Source of the DNA: a virus
Virus record (IMG/VR): IMGVR_UViG_3300026097_000036
Coordinates: 1 to 46,644 of that record
Strand: one strand, 5' to 3'
Length of the DNA stretch: 46,644 nt
A program made the translations under genes and the position numbers. Positions 11,589 through 40,470 of the stretch are shown here, in pieces. How positions within the stretch are numbered: position 1 is the first letter of the stretch; each line of letters begins with the position of its first letter. The notes beneath the pieces were generated by a model. That model was not told where the DNA came from. It searched no databases and saw nothing but the letters and a program-made list of their open reading frames with translations.

Positions 11589-14500
11589 TTATTCAACTGT
11601 TAGTTTGATATCCCCATCAGGATCAATGGCGATGGTTCTTGATGTCTTACTGTTTTCCGTAGTTGTTGATAATTCTTCACCACTGTTCGGTATTTCGTCA
11701 ATTACATAAGTAATACCACCGATCGTTACTTTACGAGATTGATTCAATCCACCACCACTTACTCGTGATACTTCTCTAAATGCTATTGGTAAGTCCTCAA
11801 AAGTTGCAGGAACACCTGGTTTATCACCAACAAAAGTTGCGGATATTAAGAATAGTTTTCTATCTAATAGTTTTAAGAATCCGTATTCTCTTGCAAGTTC
11901 TGCATATGTTTGATTACTTTCTGTTCTATCTCCAAGTGGAATATTACCGATAAGTGATTCTATTTGTTGTAATCTACTTTCATAATCCCACTTTCTAAAT
12001 TCAAATACAAATCGTTCGTTACGATCATTACGAACAGCAACTCTCATATCTTCATCAGGTCTGTTTGCAAATATTACAGAATCTTCAAAACTATTTCTTA
12101 ACAGAATAACATCTGTATTTTGATTTAAGAATCCACCAACTTCATCTTGTGTGAGGATTACATTCGCTTCTCCGTTTTCATCTAAATCAATACTCAATAA
12201 CTGACCAACATATCTTTCTAAATCTGTAATTGATGGTTTAGTTTTTATTGGTGATTCAACATTATCAAATGTTGTATAGTCCGTTTGTTGAACTATTGTA
12301 ACTTCATCGATTTGTCTTCCTTGGTTTGCAAGATTTGCGGTCTCTGCTTTACCTAATCGTTTTGCTTTACTTCTATCAAGTAAGTGAGGTTCAATGAAAA
12401 TGGATGTGGTTAGATTGGATTTACCTGGTACAAACTTCTGTATATTGTTGAATAATGTCTTATCAAAGTTTCTAATGTAATCAATAAAGAACTTTGTTTT
12501 TCTGTTTGAAGATATGTCTGAAAAGAAGTTTTCTACTAATGTCCGCAATGAATCATACTCTGTATTGTATGTATCAAGTGGATCACCATATTCATTTACT
12601 AAGTCTGTTGAACCAAAATGTTCTAATATGATTTGATTAAGAATATCTGTTGGACTGAATCCAATAATCAAGTCGTTTGTATCAGTAACTTCTTGTATAG
12701 ATTCACTGTTTCTTCCATATGCTTCAATATTTGGTGTAAGTGTATCACCACTCAATGTTTGAGTTAATCCATATCTTACTTTGTTATTACCAAGTTTATC
12801 ATCACCAATATTAGGTGCTAAGATATAATCTTCTCTTGTTACGGAGTTAAAATCACTAACCTCAAAGTTTGATGCTGTAACTTCCGTTGGATAAAGTGGA
12901 TTAAATACAAGATTTGGTAGCTTACCATTTTGTGATAAGTTTGTGCCTGGTTGTTGTGTAATATCCACACGAACCTTTAAATCACTTGGTATTAGTAATG
13001 GATTTTCTAATCTAACACTTGTTGGGAACTTCGTATGTTGTTCAAAATCATTTTCTGAAAGTGTTGATGACCAAACACGAAGTTCATCAACAGCACCACT
13101 AAATCCTAAACCATCTGTCGAATCTTGCCCAAACTTAAATTGAGTTGAACCTGTAATTGAAACTGATGAAGTAGTCACTGTATCGGACTGTTGAACATCA
13201 AATTCACCAAATATTCTATTAAATTTATAAGTGTAGAACTCAAATGAGCCTGGTTCTGCTTCTTGAACTAAAATATTCCAATATTCACCGTCAAATAAAC
13301 TTGCAGTAGCTGATGAACTTACTTCAAGGTCTGTTGATCCTGATTTTATATTAAGAACTAACTTACCATCGTTACCTGATGTGTTTTCTATATCAAGTGT
13401 AAATGAAGCATCACCAGTTGTAGATGATGCACTAACAATAGTTGTTGAGATAGGGTCACCAATCCAACGATAATTAAGTTCAAATGCTGTAAATGGTGAA
13501 ATTGTTGTATCATCAACTTCTATGTATTCATCATCATCGTTAAACAATAGTTCATATGTATATGTTTCTTTCTTAAACTCTTGTTCTAATCCTAATGGTG
13601 ATTTAAGAGAACCAAACTCTTTGATAAACAATGTTGATTCAGGTATTCCGTAACTATTGACTAATGCACGAACTGCTCTTTCAGTTCCTTTGTGTTTTAG
13701 TAGATGAGGTAAGTTTGTAAGTAATCTTCGTATAGTTTCTTTTTGTTGATTCTCAAAACTAAAGTTGTTGGATACTGCACCAATATCTGTTTCATCAGTC
13801 GTAACACCTAAAATGTATTCCCATATATCTTTCTCACTAAACCCACTATCAAGATTATTAGCATACATATTGAGTAAGACAATGGATAAGTCGGAACTCA
13901 ATCCTTTTGTTTTATCTAAATTCCAATCATATAGATTACCAAGTTCTTTGGAGTATAACCATATCTCATCAAATAGTTGTCCGATCATATCAACAAACAG
14001 AACATACTCTTCACTATTCTCATCTTCTCTAATATGTTCAGGTGTATTATTACGGAAACTATCTCTGTTTAGATTATCATAATCTCTTGCAACTTCTTTT
14101 AAATCCTCATACCAAGTTGATACATTAGTTGAACTTTGTAAACTCTGTTTTTCTTTAACACTAAAGTTATTGAGTGTATAATCTGCATCTGTTGATGTGC
14201 TTACAACTTTGAATGTGTCCGAACCATCCCCATCTTTTGCTCTAAATGATATAGAGTGAGTGTCGTTAGAGAAGATAAATGAATTATTTAGTTGTTGTCC
14301 GTTGTAATAAATGATTAGTGGTTTGTTATTTCCACTTGTTTTTTCAAATGTAAGGTTGTATTCTAGCCCTGTGGTTAGAGAAAGTGTGTCTGATGCTGAT
14401 GTCTCACCAACCAATGATACTTCTGATGTAAATGTTCCACTTGTAATTTCTTCGGAACCAACTTGTTTTGGCCACGATGCATATATTGCGTCGGAAGATG

Positions 14501-16202
14501 AAACATAAGATGATGAATAAAATGAACCACTATCATTGTATAAGAAATATTCATAGTCATCAAAACTATTTTTTACATTTCTTATTTTTTCATCAAGTTT
14601 ATTAAGTTCAGCAGTTTTATACACTTCACTTGCTACTGATTGACTTACTACATTACTTTGTGATGTATAACTTTCTATATCTTGTATTTTGTAGTGAAAG
14701 TTAATCACTCGTTCTTCTGCAGAACTAAACTTCACAAAGTTTTTGAAGTCCGTAAAATCTGTGTTTAGTTTGACTAACTGATTATCTTTCTGTAAGAAGT
14801 GATCAAATACTTTCTTTTGTATATTTTCTTGTGAAGAAAGTGTGAGATTGTTTATACTTTGATAATCACTATATTCGTTTATCTTTCCTTCTTCAACTTC
14901 CGTTTGAAAGTTTGGAGTTAGTTGTTCAATCTTTTGAATTGCAGCTGCTTTTGATAAATCAAACTCAATAGAAAGTGGATAATATGGTGTGTTGAATATA
15001 TCAACTTTATCAAGTCGTTCAACATTCGTATTGATTGGATTAGCTAACTTAACTACAATAGAATCCAATACATCAATCTCACCATCAACTTGATTTAACT
15101 CACCACCACGAACCCAGTTAACAAGTAAGTTTCTATTACCCTTATCATCAATAATAGCATACTTTAAGAATCTATCCTTTTCAGTAATAGGAAGAGTATT
15201 TGGGTCTTCTTCTGTTGTTGTTGGGGTATATTCACCTACAATATTACTAATCAAAGATTTAAGTGAGTTTTCAATAACACTCTCAATATCGGGAGCACTA
15301 TTATCATATTCACAACTTCCATCATTTATCGTAGCTTGTGGATTATAGTTAGTTGCAATGGAATCAGTACATCCTTGTATTGGGTACTTACAAGTTCCGT
15401 CATCTTCCTCTGCTAATTCATCAAAATTAAGAGCGTTTGGATCTGTACAACCTGTTTTAACAGGGCCATACTCACAACTATCATCGTCTTTTGTTGCACT
15501 GGCGTTATAATTAGATGCGTTAGAGTCGGTACATCCCCAAATATCTTCAGTGCCTCCACCACCTCCCCCACCATTATCTTTTTCTACACCACTCCAATAT
15601 TGAGTAATATAGTAAGGTGTGTTAGTAAATAAATCAGTTACTTTGAAAGTTATGGATGCATCTGTTTCAGCGTCAGTTGGAAATGGATTCCCAAATCCAC
15701 CAAAATCAATATAGTACTTATATCCAAGGCCTTGTTCTATACCATCTGTTTTTACACTAAAACTTGGTGTGTAGTTGATATTTGAACTATCTTCAACAGA
15801 AACTGTTATTTGATCTGCTTTCAGTGTAAATGAACTAGCTTCAACTATACCACTATCAATAGCATCTTGAATACCTTTTGGTATACTAGCTTCTCTAATG
15901 AATATTCTATTTCTTCCGTAGTCACCAGTATCTGATCTTACATTTTTTGGTTGAATAACTAAACCATCAATTCTATCGTAAGCAAATGTATTGATATCTC
16001 TTTCACGAAAGTTAGATATTTCATTTGCATTATATGACCTTTTTCTTTCTATACCATTTCTACGGGCTTTTATAGTGACTTTAATACCATTATTAAAGTA
16101 TGTACCAAACTCACCCAAGTCAGCGATATTGTATATACCTTCACTTCCTTTGTAGGTAAGTACTGTGGTTAGTGTATCTTTTTTGTTTATAGAGGTTGCC
16201 AT
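11589..16202 (-). CDS. Very large baseplate/tail protein with GCTD Cys-rich repeats and a LamG-like domain
   Basis: 1537 aa. The ATG follows a strong Shine-Dalgarno, GGAGG, 9 nt upstream. After a beta-rich N-terminus and a poly-Gly linker (near residue 215) come three Cys-containing repeats (about residues 221-300) of the form GCTDxxAxNYNxxAxxDDxSCxY. A concanavalin A/LamG-like segment lies roughly at residues 900-1080 (TAFELNYRWIGD ... GFSGAVDELRVWSS). Just before it is LLTNLPHLLKHKGTERAV, a sequence style common in tail proteins of large phages. The position directly after the gp6-like block suggests a baseplate wedge or short-fibre anchoring role comparable with T4 gp7/gp10, but this is inferred from gene order only. 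The GCTD repeats are otherwise typical of secreted proteins from marine Bacteroidota-like bacteria, so they may be host-derived. Confidence 0.75.
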   Translation of the reverse strand: MATSINKKDTLTTVLTYKGSEGIYNIADLGEFGTYFNNGIKVTIKARRNGIERKRSYNANEISNFRERDINTFAYDRIDGLVIQPKNVRSDTGDYGRNRIFIREASIPKGIQDAIDSGIVEASSFTLKADQITVSVEDSSNINYTPSFSVKTDGIEQGLGYKYYIDFGGFGNPFPTDAETDASITFKVTDLFTNTPYYITQYWSGVEKDNGGGGGGGTEDIWGCTDSNASNYNASATKDDDSCEYGPVKTGCTDPNALNFDELAEEDDGTCKYPIQGCTDSIATNYNPQATINDGSCEYDNSAPDIESVIENSLKSLISNIVGEYTPTTTEEDPNTLPITEKDRFLKYAIIDDKGNRNLLVNWVRGGELNQVDGEIDVLDSIVVKLANPINTNVERLDKVDIFNTPYYPLSIEFDLSKAAAIQKIEQLTPNFQTEVEEGKINEYSDYQSINNLTLSSQENIQKKVFDHFLQKDNQLVKLNTDFTDFKNFVKFSSAEERVINFHYKIQDIESYTSQSNVVSQSVASEVYKTAELNKLDEKIRNVKNSFDDYEYFLYNDSGSFYSSSYVSSSDAIYASWPKQVGSEEITSGTFTSEVSLVGETSASDTLSLTTGLEYNLTFEKTSGNNKPLIIYYNGQQLNNSFIFSNDTHSISFRAKDGDGSDTFKVVSTSTDADYTLNNFSVKEKQSLQSSTNVSTWYEDLKEVARDYDNLNRDSFRNNTPEHIREDENSEEYVLFVDMIGQLFDEIWLYSKELGNLYDWNLDKTKGLSSDLSIVLLNMYANNLDSGFSEKDIWEYILGVTTDETDIGAVSNNFSFENQQKETIRRLLTNLPHLLKHKGTERAVRALVNSYGIPESTLFIKEFGSLKSPLGLEQEFKKETYTYELLFNDDDEYIEVDDTTISPFTAFELNYRWIGDPISTTIVSASSTTGDASFTLDIENTSGNDGKLVLNIKSGSTDLEVSSSATASLFDGEYWNILVQEAEPGSFEFYTYKFNRIFGEFDVQQSDTVTTSSVSITGSTQFKFGQDSTDGLGFSGAVDELRVWSSTLSENDFEQHTKFPTSVRLENPLLIPSDLKVRVDITQQPGTNLSQNGKLPNLVFNPLYPTEVTASNFEVSDFNSVTREDYILAPNIGDDKLGNNKVRYGLTQTLSGDTLTPNIEAYGRNSESIQEVTDTNDLIIGFSPTDILNQIILEHFGSTDLVNEYGDPLDTYNTEYDSLRTLVENFFSDISSNRKTKFFIDYIRNFDKTLFNNIQKFVPGKSNLTTSIFIEPHLLDRSKAKRLGKAETANLANQGRQIDEVTIVQQTDYTTFDNVESPIKTKPSITDLERYVGQLLSIDLDENGEANVILTQDEVGGFLNQNTDVILLRNSFEDSVIFANRPDEDMRVAVRNDRNERFVFEFRKWDYESRLQQIESLIGNIPLGDRTESNQTYAELAREYGFLKLLDRKLFLISATFVGDKPGVPATFEDLPIAFREVSRVSGGGLNQSRKVTIGGITYVIDEIPNSGEELSTTTENSKTSRTIAIDPDGDIKLTVE

Positions 16203-33078: not shown

Positions 33079-33098
33079 AGTAGTTTATTTAGTTATTG

Positions 33099-33171
33099 TG
33101 AACCGGGTGGGGCTCGAACCCACGACCAACTGGTTAAAAGCCAGTTGCTCTACCAGCTGAGCTACCGGTTC
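33099..33171 (-). tRNA. tRNA-Lys (anticodon UUU)
   Basis: 73 nt. The acceptor stem GAACCGG/CCGGTTC pairs fully, the anticodon stem ACTGG/CCAGT encloses loop CTTTTAA with anticodon UUU, and the T-arm GTGGG/CCCAC encloses TTCGAGC. The discriminator is A and CCA is not encoded. UUU reads AAA/AAG, the most used Lys codons in this A-rich genome. Confidence 0.95.
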
Positions 33172-33177
33172 ATTGTG

Positions 33178-33253
33178 TCGAGGTGGTAGGATTTGAACCT
33201 ACGTACTCTACATCCCAAATGTAGCGAGATAAACCTGACTCCTCTACACCTCG
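33178..33253 (-). tRNA. tRNA-Pro (anticodon UGG)
   Basis: 76 nt. Acceptor CGAGGTG/CACCTCG, anticodon stem CTACA/TGTAG with loop TTTGGGA, which places UGG as the anticodon, and T-arm GTAGG/CCTAC. C1 and a UUUGGGA loop are typical of bacterial tRNA-Pro. The D-arm is slightly long. No encoded CCA. Confidence 0.92.
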
Positions 33254-33259
33254 TATATG

Positions 33260-33333
33260 CGACTCGTAGGGGACTTGAACCCCTGACCTCGGCAGTGACA
33301 GTGCCGCGTTCTGACCAACTGAACTAACGAGCC
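33260..33333 (-). tRNA. tRNA-Asp (anticodon GUC)
   Basis: 74 nt. Acceptor GGCTCGT/ACGAGTC (one G-U pair), D-arm GTTC/GAAC, anticodon stem CGGCA/TGCCG with loop CTGTCAC (anticodon GUC), T-arm AGGGG/CCCCT. The discriminator G is the identity base expected for tRNA-Asp. No encoded CCA. Confidence 0.95.
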
Positions 33334-33338
33334 GTTTG

Positions 33339-33410
33339 TACTCGGTACGGGATTCGAACCCGTGCTACTGCCGTGAAAGGGCAGCGTCCTAACCACTAGA
33401 CGAACCGAGC
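33339..33410 (-). tRNA. tRNA-Glu (anticodon UUC)
   Basis: 72 nt and first in the array. Acceptor GCTCGGT/ACCGAGT, D-arm GTCT/GGAC, anticodon stem CTGCC/GGCAG with loop CTTTCAC (anticodon UUC), T-arm ACGGG/CCCGT. No encoded CCA. Its own promoter lies directly upstream. Confidence 0.95.
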
Positions 33411-33418
33411 ATATAGTT

Positions 33419-33447
33419 AATGTAAGAAATAAAAGTTACAATGTCAA
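33419..33447 (-). promoter_or_regulatory. Promoter of the tRNA array
   Basis: Minus-strand TTGACA (33447-33442), 17-bp spacer, TACATT (33424-33419). The predicted transcript start is within a few nt of the tRNA-Glu 5' end at 33410. The -35 box sits immediately after the stop codon of the T9SS cargo gene. Confidence 0.75.
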
Positions 33448-33448
33448 G

Positions 33449-36109
33449 TTACTTTATAAGAAACATTGTTTTTGTTTCACTAAACTCACCTGTTGTAATA
33501 CGATAAATATATGTACCTGAACTTAGATTAGTAGCATTGAATGTTATAGTATGAGTTCCCGATGATTTCACTCCATCTACCAATGTTGATATTTTTTGAC
33601 CCATCATATCATACACTTCCAACAAAACATAAGATGATTGCGGAAGTGAATAGTTAATACTTGTAGTGGGATTGAATGGATTAGGATAGTTTTGTCCTAA
33701 CTCAAAATCATTTGGTATGTCACTATTTTCATTTGATGTAGTCATTCCTACGGTAGTAAAATCAACAAATACCCAATCACTCTTTGATACAGAGTTTACT
33801 GATCGGACTCTATAACGATATTCTTTTTCGTAATCCAATCCACTTATTGTAAGAGTTGTATCCGTTGTATTTTCATTATGAACTAACTCATTTGTTTCTT
33901 TGTTATACAATTCAAAATCATAGGATGTCGCACTCTTTACGTCTTTCCAAACAAATGTAGTTGTTGTTTGTACTCCTTTTGCCATACTCTTTGGATATAC
34001 AATAGATGTTGGATCTACAAGTTGTTCTCTAATTGTAAATCTCCAACTATCACTCCACGATCCTAAACCACCCGAATTTTTACCCCTAACTTTCCAATTA
34101 TATGTTGTGTTATGGTTTAATGTTAGTTCATATGATGTTTGTGTAACCTCTTTACTAACTATGGTTGATCCATTATTTGATACTTCTACGATATACGATG
34201 TTGCATCATCTAATGAATCCCAACTTAAAACTAATGTAGGTGGTACATTCGTCGCATCATTTACAGGATTTAGAAGAGTTACTTTTGTTGGAGGATCAAT
34301 GGGTTCAGGTTCGGTGGTAAAACTCCATGTATCACTCCACTCCCCATCACCTAACTCATTAGATGCACGGACTCTCCAACTATATGATGTACTATATGTA
34401 AGTCCACTTAATGCTTTGGATGTTGATGAAAGTGATTCATTTACAATTGTTGTAGTAAATCCATCTGTTGATACTTCAATAGTATATGAAGTAGCGTTAC
34501 CATCTGTATTCCACGATAATGTTGGTGATAACCCAACACCTGTTTGATTATTGGTAGGTGAAGATAATGATACCTTACTTACAGGATATACAGGTTCATC
34601 TTCCGTTGTAAATGTCCAAACTTGACTCCAATCACCTGTAAGGTCTGGTGATGTTGCTCGGACTCTCCAACTATATGTAGTTTCATAGTTTAGGGTTGTG
34701 GTTTTATATGATGTAGATGTGGTAGATGTATTAACAATTGTAGAAGAAAAGTTATCGGTTGATATTTGAACTTCATAGTTTGTTGTATTTTCTACACTAC
34801 CCCATGATAATGTTGGTGTAAGAGAACTATTAGTAGTTCCATTTGTTGGTGATGATAGTGATACTTGGCCTAACCTACACGGACTACCCCAATCGGGTAA
34901 ATCATTAGTAGTCATTTTCGTATCTCTATAAAAGTTAGATGGTTCTGTTGATATTAACGGAACACACCATGAAGATAAATCTTGGGAATAATTCCACGCC
35001 ATATCAAACATCGCATCCATATGTGTAGCATTTTCAACATTCCAACTTGATAAATCTTGGTTGAAATCAATAGCGTATACAAACATATACATAAAGTTGG
35101 TTGAATTAGAAACATTCCAATTACTAATATCATGTGTAAAGTTGAATGCTTTGAAAAACATACTTTGAAAACTTGTTACTGACGATACATTCCATTGTGA
35201 TATATTTTGGTTAAACATATGTGCATCTCTAAACATATCTTCCATATTCGTCACATTACCAACATTCCACCCACTAATATCTTGATTAAACTGACTTCCA
35301 ACTAGTCCGTTATTTGTATAATCGTCAATACGAACTTCCTCACCCTTAAACATCCCCTCCATGTTTGTCACATTAGACACATCCCACGATCCAATAGGTT
35401 GATTGAATACTTGGTTTTCGTAAAACATATGATTCATCAATACAACTGAACTGGTGTTCCAACGACTGATATCCTGATTAAAGTTGTTACTATCAAACAT
35501 TCCTGACATATTTCGGACTTTCGACACATTCCAATCACCAATATCCTGATTGAACATAATTGCATTTTTAAACATAAGTTGCATTTTGGTAACATTGGAA
35601 ACATCCCATGAACCAATTGGTTGATTAAATGCCCTAGCGTTTTCAAATAGATACGCCATATCATATACATTTGAAACATTCCACGAACCAATTGGTTGGT
35701 TGAAAGAAACTGCTGCTTTAAACATTGAGTTCATATTAGTCAGTGATGAAACATTCCATGGTGATATATCTCGGTTGAAAGTAGAGTATGAAAACAATGC
35801 ATACATCGTCGTAACAGAACTCACATCCCAATGGCTTATATCTTTGTTAAAATCTTTTCGATAAAACCACTCTTCCATATTAGTTACACCACTTGTACAC
35901 GCTTCATCCGCTGAAACACTCCCACCGTGAACTTGTAAATCTGTTTTTTCATCAATCTTAGTATAAACCACTCCATTGATTTCACCTGTCTCCCCAACAG
36001 ATGCATTTGAACACATTACAATCCCGTCGGAATTTATTGTAAAGTTTTGTCCAAAAGACGTTATACTAAATGTAAAGGAAAGTAAAAATAATAGTAATGT
36101 TGATTTCAT
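33449..36109 (-). CDS. Secreted T9SS cargo protein: BspA-like (DUF285) repeats, four fibronectin III domains, YPNPFNP sorting domain
   Basis: 886 aa. Residues 1-20 are a signal peptide (MKSTLLLFLLSFTFSITSFG). About residues 60-390 contain roughly a dozen BspA/DUF285 repeats of the type FNQPIGSWDVSNVTKM..MF, a leucine-rich-repeat-like surface domain. About residues 410-800 hold four fibronectin type III-like domains (for example TYSWRVRATSPDLTGDWSQV). The last 80 residues are a type IX secretion C-terminal domain: FELGQNYPNPFNPTTSINYS, VYDMMGQKISTL, LSSGTYIYRI, ending KTMFLIK. In bacteria such a tail directs export by the PorSS/T9SS across the outer membrane and attachment to the cell surface. 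Here the gene lies inside a phage operon with phage genes of the same strand on both sides. Surface display on the infected host is inferred; possible roles are adhesion or blocking of receptors. Confidence 0.9.
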   Translation of the reverse strand: MKSTLLLFLLSFTFSITSFGQNFTINSDGIVMCSNASVGETGEINGVVYTKIDEKTDLQVHGGSVSADEACTSGVTNMEEWFYRKDFNKDISHWDVSSVTTMYALFSYSTFNRDISPWNVSSLTNMNSMFKAAVSFNQPIGSWNVSNVYDMAYLFENARAFNQPIGSWDVSNVTKMQLMFKNAIMFNQDIGDWNVSKVRNMSGMFDSNNFNQDISRWNTSSVVLMNHMFYENQVFNQPIGSWDVSNVTNMEGMFKGEEVRIDDYTNNGLVGSQFNQDISGWNVGNVTNMEDMFRDAHMFNQNISQWNVSSVTSFQSMFFKAFNFTHDISNWNVSNSTNFMYMFVYAIDFNQDLSSWNVENATHMDAMFDMAWNYSQDLSSWCVPLISTEPSNFYRDTKMTTNDLPDWGSPCRLGQVSLSSPTNGTTNSSLTPTLSWGSVENTTNYEVQISTDNFSSTIVNTSTTSTSYKTTTLNYETTYSWRVRATSPDLTGDWSQVWTFTTEDEPVYPVSKVSLSSPTNNQTGVGLSPTLSWNTDGNATSYTIEVSTDGFTTTIVNESLSSTSKALSGLTYSTSYSWRVRASNELGDGEWSDTWSFTTEPEPIDPPTKVTLLNPVNDATNVPPTLVLSWDSLDDATSYIVEVSNNGSTIVSKEVTQTSYELTLNHNTTYNWKVRGKNSGGLGSWSDSWRFTIREQLVDPTSIVYPKSMAKGVQTTTTFVWKDVKSATSYDFELYNKETNELVHNENTTDTTLTISGLDYEKEYRYRVRSVNSVSKSDWVFVDFTTVGMTTSNENSDIPNDFELGQNYPNPFNPTTSINYSLPQSSYVLLEVYDMMGQKISTLVDGVKSSGTHTITFNATNLSSGTYIYRITTGEFSETKTMFLIK

Positions 36110-36120
36110 TTGTAACCTCG

Positions 36121-36306
36121 TTATTTGTCATTTATCATTTTAATTTCATACCTATGTCCTGAATCAGAGTTAATCTGAAATATCTTTCTATAATCTTCCG
36201 CATCATTTATTGAACCAAAAGTAAGAACTTCATTTTGTTCATCTACCAAAAATACAGGTAATTCCTTACCCTCTATTTGAACGTGTTTCACTATCACGTA
36301 ACTCAT
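36121..36306 (-). CDS. Small protein, unknown
   Basis: 61 aa, starting MSYVIVKHVQIEGKELPVFL, soluble, with beta-strand character (PVFLVDEQNEVLTFG) and a DAEDYRKIF helix. It overlaps the upstream 57-aa gene by 41 nt and ends 11 nt before the secreted protein's start. Likely co-transcribed with it from the promoter at 36475. No family recognised. Confidence 0.5.
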   Translation of the reverse strand: MSYVIVKHVQIEGKELPVFLVDEQNEVLTFGSINDAEDYRKIFQINSDSGHRYEIKMINDK

Positions 36307-36439
36307 TATCTTTATTCTTATGTTTTTGTTTTCTGTTATACACCTTTTTTGATGGAATAACCTTAGTGGTATTCTTTATTCCAACTTGTCTGCGGACTTC
36401 TCCGTTCGACCACCCATTAAGGTTTTTTGAGTTTTCCAT
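36266..36439 (-). CDS. Small basic protein, possibly from a leaderless mRNA
   Basis: 57 aa from the ATG at 36439 (an upstream TTG at 36475 would put the start inside the -35 box, so I reject it). The sequence is polar and basic (KVIPSKKVYNRKQKHKNKDN) with no fold that I recognise. The ATG is only 7 nt after the -10 box of the promoter, which would place it at the very 5' end of the mRNA. Confidence 0.5.
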   Translation of the reverse strand: MENSKNLNGWSNGEVRRQVGIKNTTKVIPSKKVYNRKQKHKNKDNELRDSETRSNRG

Positions 36440-36446
36440 ATACATC

Positions 36447-36475
36447 AATATAAGAAGAATAGATATTGATGTCAA
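36447..36475 (-). promoter_or_regulatory. Promoter upstream of the T9SS cargo operon
   Basis: Minus-strand TTGACA (36475-36470), 17 bp, TATATT (36452-36447). The predicted start is about 36440, 1 nt before the 36439 ATG, implying a leaderless transcript for the first gene. It lies in the short gap after thyA. Confidence 0.7.
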
Positions 36476-36483
36476 GAAAAATT

Positions 36484-37407
36484 TTAATTATTGAGAGGAG
36501 CTTTTATTTGTCCGTCAGATTTATAATCAACCAATTCAACATCAAAGTCACCCATTATAAGGTCGACATTGGATAGTGTAACTGATGGTAGTTCATATTC
36601 ATTATTATTGAGTTGTTCTTTAACAGCATCAATATGGTTTTTATAGATGTGTGTATCTCCTAAACTTCCAATTAAATGGCCTGGTTTATAACCTGTTTCT
36701 TCACACAACAATAATAGTAGTAACCCATAACTTGCGATATTAAACGGAAGTCCTAAAAACACATCCACACTTCGTTGTGTCCACATTAACGATAGTTTAT
36801 CATCACTCACATAACATTGAAACCCATAATGACATGGTGGTAGTGTCATGTAAGGTAAATCTGATACATTCCACGCGTTCACCATCATCCGTCTACTATC
36901 ACGATCATTTTTTATTAATTGAATAAGGTCTCGTAGTTGATCGGTTGATGAAGTTGCCACCATACCATCATCTAACTTTTGGCTTTCTATTTCCCAGTTT
37001 CTCCATTGTTTTCCATATATTGGGCCTAAATAACCCCACATATTATTAAACTCATCATCATCCATTATCTTTTGGATAAACTCTTTTTGTGACAGTGGTG
37101 GTTCTTCTAAGTCATAGTTGTATACTCGTTCATATAGTTTGTATGCATCACCATTCCAAATGTTACAACCATTATCTATCAAATATCGTAAGTCCGTTCT
37201 TCCTCTTAGAAACCATTTGAGTTCCGTTACCATTGCCTTAAACGCCATCTTCTTTGATGTAAGAAGTGGGTATCCTTCACTCATATCATGTCGGAACATA
37301 TACCCAAAAGTAGATAGTGTCCCCGTCTGTGTTCTATCCCCTTTTTCTACACCATTATCAAGGATGAACTGACATAACTCTTTGTATTTTTTATCCAATG
37401 TATTCAT
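36484..37407 (-). CDS. thyA: Thymidylate synthase
   Basis: 307 aa. Full-length ThyA: GDRTQTGTLSTFGYMFRHDM at the N-terminus, WNGDAY, the WGYLGPIYGKQWR folate/dUMP region, SRRMMVNAWNVSDL, catalytic Cys192 in LPPCHYGFQ, RSVDVFLGLPFNIASYGLL, and GSLGDTHIYKNH. It methylates dUMP to dTMP with methylenetetrahydrofolate and suits an AT-rich genome. The ATG overlaps the stop of nrdA (TGATG), so it is coupled to the reductase genes. This is the TS-A type, not ThyX. Confidence 0.96.
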   Translation of the reverse strand: MNTLDKKYKELCQFILDNGVEKGDRTQTGTLSTFGYMFRHDMSEGYPLLTSKKMAFKAMVTELKWFLRGRTDLRYLIDNGCNIWNGDAYKLYERVYNYDLEEPPLSQKEFIQKIMDDDEFNNMWGYLGPIYGKQWRNWEIESQKLDDGMVATSSTDQLRDLIQLIKNDRDSRRMMVNAWNVSDLPYMTLPPCHYGFQCYVSDDKLSLMWTQRSVDVFLGLPFNIASYGLLLLLLCEETGYKPGHLIGSLGDTHIYKNHIDAVKEQLNNNEYELPSVTLSNVDLIMGDFDVELVDYKSDGQIKAPLNN

Positions 37408-39113
37408 CAGCCTTCACATGCAATGCATTGCAAATCATTTAGTTGTAATTTCTTCCGTGAAAACGCTTGTGCGGAATTCATAGAGTGTTGGTAGTATAAC
37501 GTCTTAACTCCAAGTTGCCATGCATCAACCAACAACTTATTTATTTCCTTCACTGATAAATCAGGTGGAATCATAATGTTAAGTGATTGTGATTGATCGA
37601 TATAATCTTGTCGGATAGCCGCTTGATTGATAATGCTACTTTGGTTGATTTCCGCAAAAGTTCTAAACACATCTTTTTGATGGTCGGTTAAAAACTCAAG
37701 ATGTTGAACTGAACCATCGTGTTTCTTTATACTATCCCATGTATCTTTATTATCTTTACCAAGTTCTTTCAGTAAAGTTTTTAAAACAGGGTTCTTTACA
37801 GTCACTTTCATTTTTGCCATATCTTTCACATAACAGTTACTCCAAATAGGTTCAATGGATTGTGATACTTGACCTAAGATAAACGCGGAACTTGTGGTAG
37901 GTGCAATAGCGTTTAGTGTAACATTTCTTCTACCATACCCCTTCAAGTATTCGGGTTCTCCAAACAGTTCACCAAGTTCTTTACTAGCTTGATATGATTT
38001 ATCCTGTATGAGTTTGAATACTTCTACATTTAGTTTAGCGGTTTCACGAGTATCAAATGGTAAATCTCTTTTCTGTAATAAAGAATGCCACCCCAATACA
38101 CCAAGACCAAGTGCTCGTTGTCTTTTTGCAAAGTTGTATGCTCTTTCCATAAAGTCAAAAGCTCTTCTACCTTCTGGTGTTCCGTTATCTCTAATAGATT
38201 CTAACTTGGTTAAAAACTCGGTGACTACACTATCTAAAAAGTAAGTAAGAACTTCTACTGCATCTGTATCCTTCCACTCATCGTAATGTAGTAAGTTCAT
38301 AGAAGATAAGACACATACAAATGATTCTTCTGTGTTGTCCGATAACGCAATTTCCGAACATAAGTTAGAGTGTGTAATCTTCACACCTCTATCTTTGTAT
38401 ACCTCTGGTGCTTTATTATTTGTAGTGTCCGTAAACATAATGTAAGGATACCCAATCTCACCTCTTCGTTGGATTACTTTTGCCCACAACGCTCGTTTTT
38501 CTTCATCACCTTCAATCATCTGATTCATAAACTCATCGGATACTGTAACTGCGTGAGTAAGATCTTGAATAGGTGCACCTTCTGTTCCAATATCTAAGAA
38601 CTCCATTGCATCAGGATGGTCTAATGGTAAGTAAGGTGAGAATCTACCCCTACGAGTTGCACCTTGTGAGATGTTATCAACCATCGCTTCAAACAGATTC
38701 ATGAAGTGAACTGCACCAGGTGCTTCACCATTATCCGTAACAGGTGCACCTCTTCCTCGCAAGTTTCCAAAGTATCCACTTGTTCCGCCACCCATCTTAC
38801 TCATCTCACCAACTTCGGATGCGGAATACAAAATACTTTCTACATTATCTTCGATATATGATCCAAAACAAGATACTGGTAATCCTCGTTTCTTTCCGTA
38901 GTTAGCCCAAACTGGTGATGAAAGTGAATACCAACCACGACTCATATAATCATAGAACTTGTCGGAAAATCCTTCAATTCCTAATAAGTTTTCTGCGTGG
39001 TCTGCAATAGTTTTAATTCTCTCTACTGGTGATTCTCCTTTACTAAGATATCCTCGTTCTAAGAATGTAATAGATTCATCAGTAATCCATTCGAATGGCT
39101 TACGGTTACTCAT
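37407..39113 (-). CDS. nrdA: Class I ribonucleotide reductase, large (alpha) subunit without ATP-cone
   Basis: 568 aa. The three active-site cysteines can be matched: C82 (LPVSCFGSY), C252 (HSNLCSEIAL) and C267 (FVCVLSSMNL), corresponding to E. coli C225, C439 and C462. GGGTSGYFGNLRGRG is the specificity-region loop. The C-terminus ends CIACEG, the flexible CxxC tail that re-reduces the active site. The protein is about 200 residues shorter than E. coli NrdA because the N-terminal ATP-cone is absent; that domain is found instead on NrdB encoded just upstream. It makes deoxyribonucleotides from ribonucleoside diphosphates. It follows nrdB by 19 nt and precedes thyA with a 1-base overlap. Confidence 0.95.
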   Translation of the reverse strand: MSNRKPFEWITDESITFLERGYLSKGESPVERIKTIADHAENLLGIEGFSDKFYDYMSRGWYSLSSPVWANYGKKRGLPVSCFGSYIEDNVESILYSASEVGEMSKMGGGTSGYFGNLRGRGAPVTDNGEAPGAVHFMNLFEAMVDNISQGATRRGRFSPYLPLDHPDAMEFLDIGTEGAPIQDLTHAVTVSDEFMNQMIEGDEEKRALWAKVIQRRGEIGYPYIMFTDTTNNKAPEVYKDRGVKITHSNLCSEIALSDNTEESFVCVLSSMNLLHYDEWKDTDAVEVLTYFLDSVVTEFLTKLESIRDNGTPEGRRAFDFMERAYNFAKRQRALGLGVLGWHSLLQKRDLPFDTRETAKLNVEVFKLIQDKSYQASKELGELFGEPEYLKGYGRRNVTLNAIAPTTSSAFILGQVSQSIEPIWSNCYVKDMAKMKVTVKNPVLKTLLKELGKDNKDTWDSIKKHDGSVQHLEFLTDHQKDVFRTFAEINQSSIINQAAIRQDYIDQSQSLNIMIPPDLSVKEINKLLVDAWQLGVKTLYYQHSMNSAQAFSRKKLQLNDLQCIACEG

Positions 39114-39132
39114 ATTTCGGTAAGTTTAGGGT

Positions 39133-40377
39133 TTAAAATAAATCGTCAGCAGTAACTGATTTCTGACGCTTGGTGTAGTTGATACTTCGTTTGTTGAAAA
39201 AGTCAGTATGCTTTGTGGCAAGAATTTCATCATCAAACCATTCTGTTTTTTCCAATAACTTTTCATCCACATCAAAGATAGATTCAATACCAATCTCATT
39301 TAGTGAACGATTAAATCGGTGTTTGATAAACTCTAATGTTTGTTCTTTTGTTAAGAACTCCATATCACCTGATTCAAACATCCAATCAACAATCTCTCTT
39401 TCTGCATCCCATGCTTCAATTGTCGCTTGTTTCAAGTCCGAAACAAGTTGGTCTGTCCACCACGATGGGTTTTCTTTCTTAATGGTGTTGATTAAATCAA
39501 ATCCAAACTTAGCGTGGATATCTTCTTCTTTGGATGTAGCTTCAACTGCGTTGGAAATACCCTTCAATGCGTTTTTGAACTTATTGAAAGACATGATAAC
39601 TAAAAACTGTGAGAATAATGAAACATTTTCAACGAACATAGAAAACAAAATAACTGATTCAAAGTAATCTTGATTCTCTGTTTCTTTCGATTGTGCTATA
39701 ACATTCTCTAAATACTTAACTCTCTTACGAATAGCAGGAACATCCATTAGTGTTTCAAACTCACTGTTAAGTCCTAAAATTTTGATAAGATTTGAATATG
39801 CATCGGCGTGTCTGACTTCTGATTCAGCAAAAGTTGCACCTACATTACCGATTTCAGGTTTTGGCATTTTCTTATAAATGTCTCCCCAAAATGTTTTGAC
39901 CGCAACCTCAACTTGTGAGATGGCTAACATGGCTCGTGTTACAACTTGTTGTTCTTCTTCTGTAAGTGTAACCTTCATATCCTGAACATCGGAGTTGTAA
40001 TTAAACTCTGTATGAACCCAGTATGAGTGTCTAATAGCATCTACATATTCTGCAAGATTTGGGTATTCATACGGTTTCAAATTTCTCCTCTTTTTAAAAA
40101 TATCTGTTCTATCTTTATCTCGTTTAATGATATACTCTCTTGCCACATCATTCAACCCATGATTCATCAATTCGTTTTCTACCATATCATGGATATCATC
40201 CACCGATGGTATTTTTGTTTCATCAATAAAAAGTGATTCGGTTACTTCTCTTGTTATTTCTTCCGCCATTTTGAAATCAATTTTTTCTGTCTTTTCCATT
40301 GCCTTCAAAACCGCTCGTAAAATTTTGGTAGATTCAAACTGATGTTTGTCACCATTTCTCTTTATCACATATTTCAT
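39133..40377 (-). CDS. nrdB: Class I ribonucleotide reductase, small (beta) subunit with N-terminal ATP-cone
   Basis: 414 aa from the ATG at 40377, which has GAGAG 7 nt upstream; an in-frame ATG at 40404 would add nine residues. Residues 1 to about 95 are an ATP-cone (MKYVIKRNGDKHQFES, then SVDDIHDMVENELM and AREYIIKRDKDR), the regulatory domain normally carried by NrdA. The remainder is a ferritin-like R2: metal ligands in QVEVAVKTFWG, E187-V-R-H190, a Glu in FVENVSLFSQF and a Glu/His pair in EEDIHAKFG. Tyr194 occupies the position of the E. coli radical Tyr122 (four residues after the His), so this is a tyrosyl-radical enzyme. In studied NrdB-linked ATP-cones, dATP drives beta tetramers and turns the enzyme off. 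A terminator lies upstream, so the operon has its own start. Confidence 0.93.
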   Translation of the reverse strand: MKYVIKRNGDKHQFESTKILRAVLKAMEKTEKIDFKMAEEITREVTESLFIDETKIPSVDDIHDMVENELMNHGLNDVAREYIIKRDKDRTDIFKKRRNLKPYEYPNLAEYVDAIRHSYWVHTEFNYNSDVQDMKVTLTEEEQQVVTRAMLAISQVEVAVKTFWGDIYKKMPKPEIGNVGATFAESEVRHADAYSNLIKILGLNSEFETLMDVPAIRKRVKYLENVIAQSKETENQDYFESVILFSMFVENVSLFSQFLVIMSFNKFKNALKGISNAVEATSKEEDIHAKFGFDLINTIKKENPSWWTDQLVSDLKQATIEAWDAEREIVDWMFESGDMEFLTKEQTLEFIKHRFNRSLNEIGIESIFDVDEKLLEKTEWFDDEILATKHTDFFNKRSINYTKRQKSVTADDLF

Positions 40378-40470
40378 AGAACTCTCAAATTTATATCTTA
40401 TCATAATATTTTAGGTGTAGATAAATACAATATATATCTTCAAATTTAAACCAAAATTTGAAAATTTAAT

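Follow-up and report, generated by a model that had tools for sequence, protein, structure and literature searches.

Cargo of the type IX secretion system (T9SS) that is encoded by phages is already known: T9SS sorting domains were noted in a crAss-like lineage in 2019 (PMC6949934), and three genes for T9SS-tailed cargo were described in Cryophage in 2020, together with the proposal that the phage hijacks host secretion, possibly for superinfection exclusion (PMC7468147). T9SS-displayed adhesins, for example SprB and RemA, may in turn act as phage receptors (PMC13288928), and a phage that floods the T9SS route could therefore control superinfection. Here we describe P0001, a predicted secreted surface protein of 886 aa that is encoded on the minus strand at 33449..36109 of the window, i.e. 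the whole linear 46.6-kb IMG/VR fragment under analysis, which derives from a contractile-tailed phage. Like the Cryophage cargo (endoglucanase, GH39 and PA14 proteins; PMC7468147), P0001 is phage-encoded and carries a T9SS type A sorting domain. Unlike that cargo, which consists of enzymes and PA14 proteins and belongs to another phage, P0001 is an adhesin-like DUF285–FN3 protein with a host that is supported by genome comparison. What is added here is this type of cargo and a Balneolaceae host.

Domain architecture of P0001

The reading frame of P0001 opens with an ATG at 36109, closes with a stop codon at 33449 and encodes, in order, a signal peptide, DUF285/BspA repeats, four FN3 domains and a T9SS tail. 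The earlier note had read a signal peptide, a dozen or so BspA/DUF285 repeats, four FN3 domains and a YPNPFNP-type tail from the letters, and profile searches and alignment bear this reading out. The predicted signal peptide occupies residues 1–20 (36050..36109, minus strand, as are all P0001 features; MKSTLLLFLLSFTFSITSFG followed by Q). It was recognized by eye in the N-terminus MKSTLLLFLLSFTFSITSFGQ-NF, which aligns with bacterial homologues that begin '...AAQ-DFYL', and a helix is predicted at residues 2–14; by sequence and homologue alignment, P0001 has the Sec signal peptide expected of T9SS cargo. A BspA-type N-terminal domain follows (35852..36049) with the motif GETG..NGVVYT, whose columns are common to bacterial proteins, residues G39, T41, G42, N45, G46, V47, Y49 and T50 being invariant. 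The solenoid (34928..35851) is built of 12 DUF285/BspA 25-residue repeats, each with a conserved Trp, spaced by 24–25 aa with one interval of 39 aa. It matches DUF285 (PF03382) with an E-value of 4.8e-104 and the PARCEL/BspA repeat model TIGR02167 with 107.5 bits (cut-off 30), which places P0001 among the BspA-like/DUF285 proteins with their tandem 25–26 aa PARCEL repeats, and in the AlphaFold2 model it is confident, with most blocks above a pLDDT of 90.

The four FN3 domains (33740..34858, residues about 418–790) are supported by Pfam (fn3, E 4.9e-19) and by a PDB fold search that returned four-domain FN3 fragments, and the same number is counted in the sequence; these beta-sandwich domains are modelled with lower confidence. 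At the extreme C-terminus lies the T9SS type A sorting domain (33452..33688, residues 808–886, QNYPNPFNP...), where cargo of this type carries it. This tail exceeds the cut-offs of both TIGR04183 (T9SS type A; 44.2 bits against 23, residues 808–885 of 886) and Por_Secre_tail (PF18962; 37.8 bits against 27), and its beta-rich portion, residues 815–884, is well predicted in the model.

Bacterial counterparts

A genome scan with the pattern of the P0001 N-terminal domain gave no match in its first version and 19 loci in a looser one, mostly in Balneolaceae and Flavobacteriaceae. Three of the Balneolaceae proteins (L169, L172 and L166) consist of a signal peptide, a GDTG..NGV.YT domain, DUF285 repeats and a YPNPFNP tail that is 50–54% identical to the tail of P0001; for Balneolaceae sorting tails overall the range is 50–57%. 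On one Balneolaceae contig, three genes of this signal peptide–DUF285–YPNPFNP type are consecutive. L169, L172 and the 503-aa L227 thus share the signal peptide, the GETG..NGV.YT domain, the DUF285 repeats and the tail with P0001, but they are chromosomal, and those compared in full are without the four FN3 domains. Where, then, do the FN3 domains come from? L227 is 46% identical to P0001 over P0001 residues 6–409, and another Balneolaceae protein, L228, which has tandem FN3 domains and a YPNPFNP tail, is 40% identical over residues 414–886. Because each half has its own close counterpart in this family, P0001 looks like a mosaic of two types of Balneolaceae cargo; no single bacterial protein with the complete domain set was found in the pattern scan or in wider searches.

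Phage context and predicted expression

The P0001 gene lies within a true phage genome, as indicated by gp6- and gp25-like baseplate wedge proteins, an SbcC-like nuclease subunit, a SegE-like endonuclease and phage promoters that flank the gene. The window also encodes a Toprim primase-like protein, a DNA methylase and, upstream of P0001 on the same minus strand, the thymidylate synthase ThyA (36484..37407), NrdA (37407..39113) and NrdB with an ATP cone (39133..40404). In other words, P0001 sits beside nrd, thyA and tRNA genes and outside the structural cluster, which lies below 28 kb. In that tail region, at 11589–16202, there is a 1537-aa protein with no PHROG match that carries repeated Cys motifs of the form GCTDxxAxNYNxxAxxDDGSCEY.

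A promoter motif, TTGAC-N17-TAYATT, occurs at 10 minus-strand sites, where 0.6 would be expected, with a spacing of 17 nt in every case (46414, 46042, 45201, 43672, 42281, 36475, 33447, 32782, 29999 and 28448, the last two inside genes). It precedes a VWA-like gene (site 32782) and several genes at 42–46 kb, and none of the ten sites falls in the structural gene cluster below 28 kb of the window. The instance upstream of P0001 (TTGACA-N17-TATATT, 36447..36475, minus strand) had been taken as a dedicated P0001 promoter. That description does not hold, since the site is common to P0001 and two small minus-strand ORFs, one of 57 aa that is first in the predicted unit (36266..36439 from its ATG start; the listed ORF extends to 36475) and one of 61 aa just ahead of P0001 (36121..36306). 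On the other side, tRNA genes do directly follow P0001, as the earlier note had said, and all four are present: tRNA-Glu (33338..33410), tRNA-Asp (33259..33333), tRNA-Pro (33177..33253) and tRNA-Lys(TTT) (33098..33171), all on the minus strand. They probably form a separate unit, however, because the motif recurs as a promoter of their own (TTGACA-N17-TACATT, 33419..33447, minus strand) ahead of the cluster, right after the P0001 stop codon. From the promoter class, P0001 would be expressed with the nrd, thyA and tRNA genes and not with the tail genes.

A predicted Balneolaceae host

Which bacterium would read the sorting tail? When a 20-kb part of the window was compared with 245 genomes from the class, the nrdA/nrdB matches among those listed came from just two genomes of 1.5 Mb, G167 and G168, at about 70% nucleotide identity; at the protein level, NrdA is 83–84% and NrdB 73% identical to the phage proteins. 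The same two genomes alone have the phage tRNA-Lys exactly (74/74 nt), the next among the matches listed being at 93%, and in both the tRNA gene is surrounded by ordinary chromosome, with malate dehydrogenase, AroQ and RibD/E as named from ORF reading. The phage has a GC content of about 33%, compared with about 48.5% for the G167 and G168 stretches, and given this gap, the sharing of nrd and tRNA genes reflects transfer, which is indirect yet specific evidence for a host. The family of G168 includes G065, a Balneolaceae metagenome-assembled genome. Taken together, a host from a small-genome, T9SS-bearing Balneolaceae lineage, similar to G167 and G168, is well supported by these sequence comparisons. 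Of the two routes to the host that the earlier note had suggested, tRNA matching led to these genomes and CRISPR spacers led to none: one 20-kb piece of the window gave only chance-level spacer matches against 92 genomes, and the matches of the other were dominated by tRNA genes, behind which weak spacer matches could hide.

The predicted hosts, themselves inferred, have a T9SS. PorV is present in both, SprA is full-length in G168 and split over three ORFs in G167, and each genome has 9–15 matches to P0001, nearly all at the sorting tail, i.e. in YPNPFNP cargo of its own. These observations are in keeping with the expectation that the phage is restricted to a T9SS-bearing lineage. Searched with P0001, G167 and G168 themselves gave no DUF285 match; proteins with DUF285 and T9SS tails are common elsewhere in their family. 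We also considered a host among the Campylobacterota, as the N-terminal domain resembles proteins of Sulfurovum and Helicobacteraceae; a Sulfurovum genome had no match to SprA or PorV, and we set this candidate aside.

T9SS-tailed proteins in other phages

The P0001 tail alone found no match in GenBank phages by tblastn, but an HMM search does find such a tail in the cultured Flavobacterium phage immuto. Scanning IMG/VR for YPNPFNP returned 73 stretches, among them several short non-genes and unrelated motifs within other proteins; because many true tails may sit on bacterial flanks, we used only those with phage neighbours. Among relatives of the window phage by gp6, T9SS tails occur in immuto and in the uncultured G025 and G053. 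The immuto protein (immuto35A_15), which is annotated only as a cohesin-domain protein, lies about 3 kb past nrdA. It resembles P0001 in being secreted and T9SS-tailed, in being encoded near nrdA and in coming from a myovirus whose baseplate wedge protein is related; it differs in having a cohesin domain rather than DUF285 and FN3. G025 and G053 share a different T9SS-tailed protein, of 521–522 aa (L163:151-1719 and L164:1492-3057) beside an RpiB-like gene (ribose-5-phosphate isomerase B-like). In another uncultured group (L030 and L067), a T9SS-tailed cohesin-type protein is encoded near an amidase-like gene and a non-specific endonuclease that has a signal peptide and is 51–52% identical to that of immuto.

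Several further observations concern these loci. In immuto (MW353176.1), L079:1936-5423 encodes, one after the other, an Endonuclease_NS and a C-type lectin protein, each with a signal peptide, then a third secreted protein and the cohesin–T9SS protein; stretches of the lectin protein and of the third protein look dockerin-like by eye but have no Pfam dockerin match. Uncultured phage contigs encode a protein in which relatives of immuto proteins 14 and 15 are fused (cohesin plus T9SS tail; L030:758-4929, L067:3470-4039 and L023:8820-10796). Ribonucleotide reductase genes have a gene for a surface-type protein, with DUF285 or a T9SS tail, as a close neighbour in three phages (window 37407-40404; L224:3214-8092; L079:1-5423), which may be chance.

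Alternative explanations

Could P0001 instead be a virion tail or decoration protein, with a C-terminus that is an ordinary Ig domain and only resembles a sorting tail? DUF285 and Ig/FN3 domains are frequent in such proteins, and the FN3 part of P0001 matches PHROG tail families. Other phages that share DUF285 repeats with P0001 are also suggestive: the DUF285 gene lies among tail or baseplate genes in LR756500, adjoins a baseplate protein in Aeromonas phage LAh10 and is near tail collar genes in Synechococcus phage ACG-2014f. However, the DUF285 proteins of LAh10, pir03, ACG-2014f and LR756500 differ from P0001 in being encoded next to tail genes, in having no signal peptide, or in both respects, and the two that were examined in full (LR756500 and pir03) have neither a signal peptide nor a T9SS tail. 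P0001 has no tail-gene neighbourhood and does have a signal peptide; it sits in the nrd/thyA/tRNA region, its promoter class was not found ahead of the structural genes, and its C-terminus scores over the cut-off in T9SS models and resembles Balneolaceae sorting tails. Since the other phage DUF285 proteins examined are near tail genes or without a signal peptide, we read P0001 as a host-type secreted protein and regard a role in the virion as quite unlikely.

It also seems unlikely to us that P0001 is a neutral or recent passenger (a moron) of no benefit to the phage, or an unexpressed gene. Such a reading would fit the abundance of P0001 homologues in the host family and a probably sporadic distribution: 42 contigs of gp6 relatives gave no DUF285 match, in a search in which most contigs were fragments and no control genome matched either. 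On the other hand, the 886-aa frame is open over its full length, its GC content (34.2%) and GC3 (23.6%) are phage-like and far from the roughly 48.5% GC of the candidate host, a phage promoter stands upstream, and T9SS-tailed genes recur in other phages. The phage-like composition and promoter motif together imply that the gene has resided in the phage for long enough to ameliorate. Much the same evidence bears on the idea of a chimeric contig in which this gene is simply bacterial. The locus is known from a single linear fragment, the best P0001 homologues are bacterial, and searches of viral contigs gave no second contig with P0001 or close relatives of it and no close relatives of its VWA-like neighbour. 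Yet phage promoters of the same motif stand on both sides of the gene (36475 and 33447), phage tRNAs begin 38 nt downstream, GC and GC3 are like those of the phage and there is no break in GC; we consider a chimera highly improbable.

Proposed role and outlook

We therefore return to the view that P0001 is a copy, carried by the phage, of a surface protein from the host family. P0001 would be made during infection from a promoter of the metabolic-gene type, exported by Sec and then directed through the host T9SS by the sorting tail at its C-terminus. The DUF285 solenoid, borne on a stalk of FN3 domains, would in this way be exposed at the surface of the infected cell or set free from it, and the benefit to the phage would be the altered surface of that cell. 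This explanation as a whole we consider likely. The export step, which the earlier note had also put forward, is well supported at the level of sequence: the architecture is that of genuine Balneolaceae cargo, and the candidate hosts have SprA, PorV and sorting tails. As P0001 has the address tag of its probable host, infected cells would probably wear a virus-made coat protein. What would such a coat do? Our tentative first guess is that it blocks the adsorption of competing phages, either by masking receptors or by occupying the T9SS in competition with receptor adhesins; our next guess, somewhat more doubtful, is that it mediates adhesion between cells or to particles. The candidates named in the earlier note, namely receptor masking, aggregation and altered gliding, are likewise conjectural.

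To the few phage proteins that apparently use the T9SS, P0001 adds a cargo of the adhesin type whose T9SS-bearing host is supported by genome comparison. More speculatively still, phages of T9SS bacteria might make up a general class whose members assemble surface modules via the host T9SS, whether P0001-like adhesins or, in immuto and several uncultured phages, cohesin–T9SS proteins linked to secreted non-specific nucleases, and so remodel the infected surface, for example to stop competitors. The finding points to T9SS-mediated changes of the host surface by phages of Bacteroidota and Balneolota, and, with immuto in culture, the question of phage T9SS surface modules becomes a testable one.
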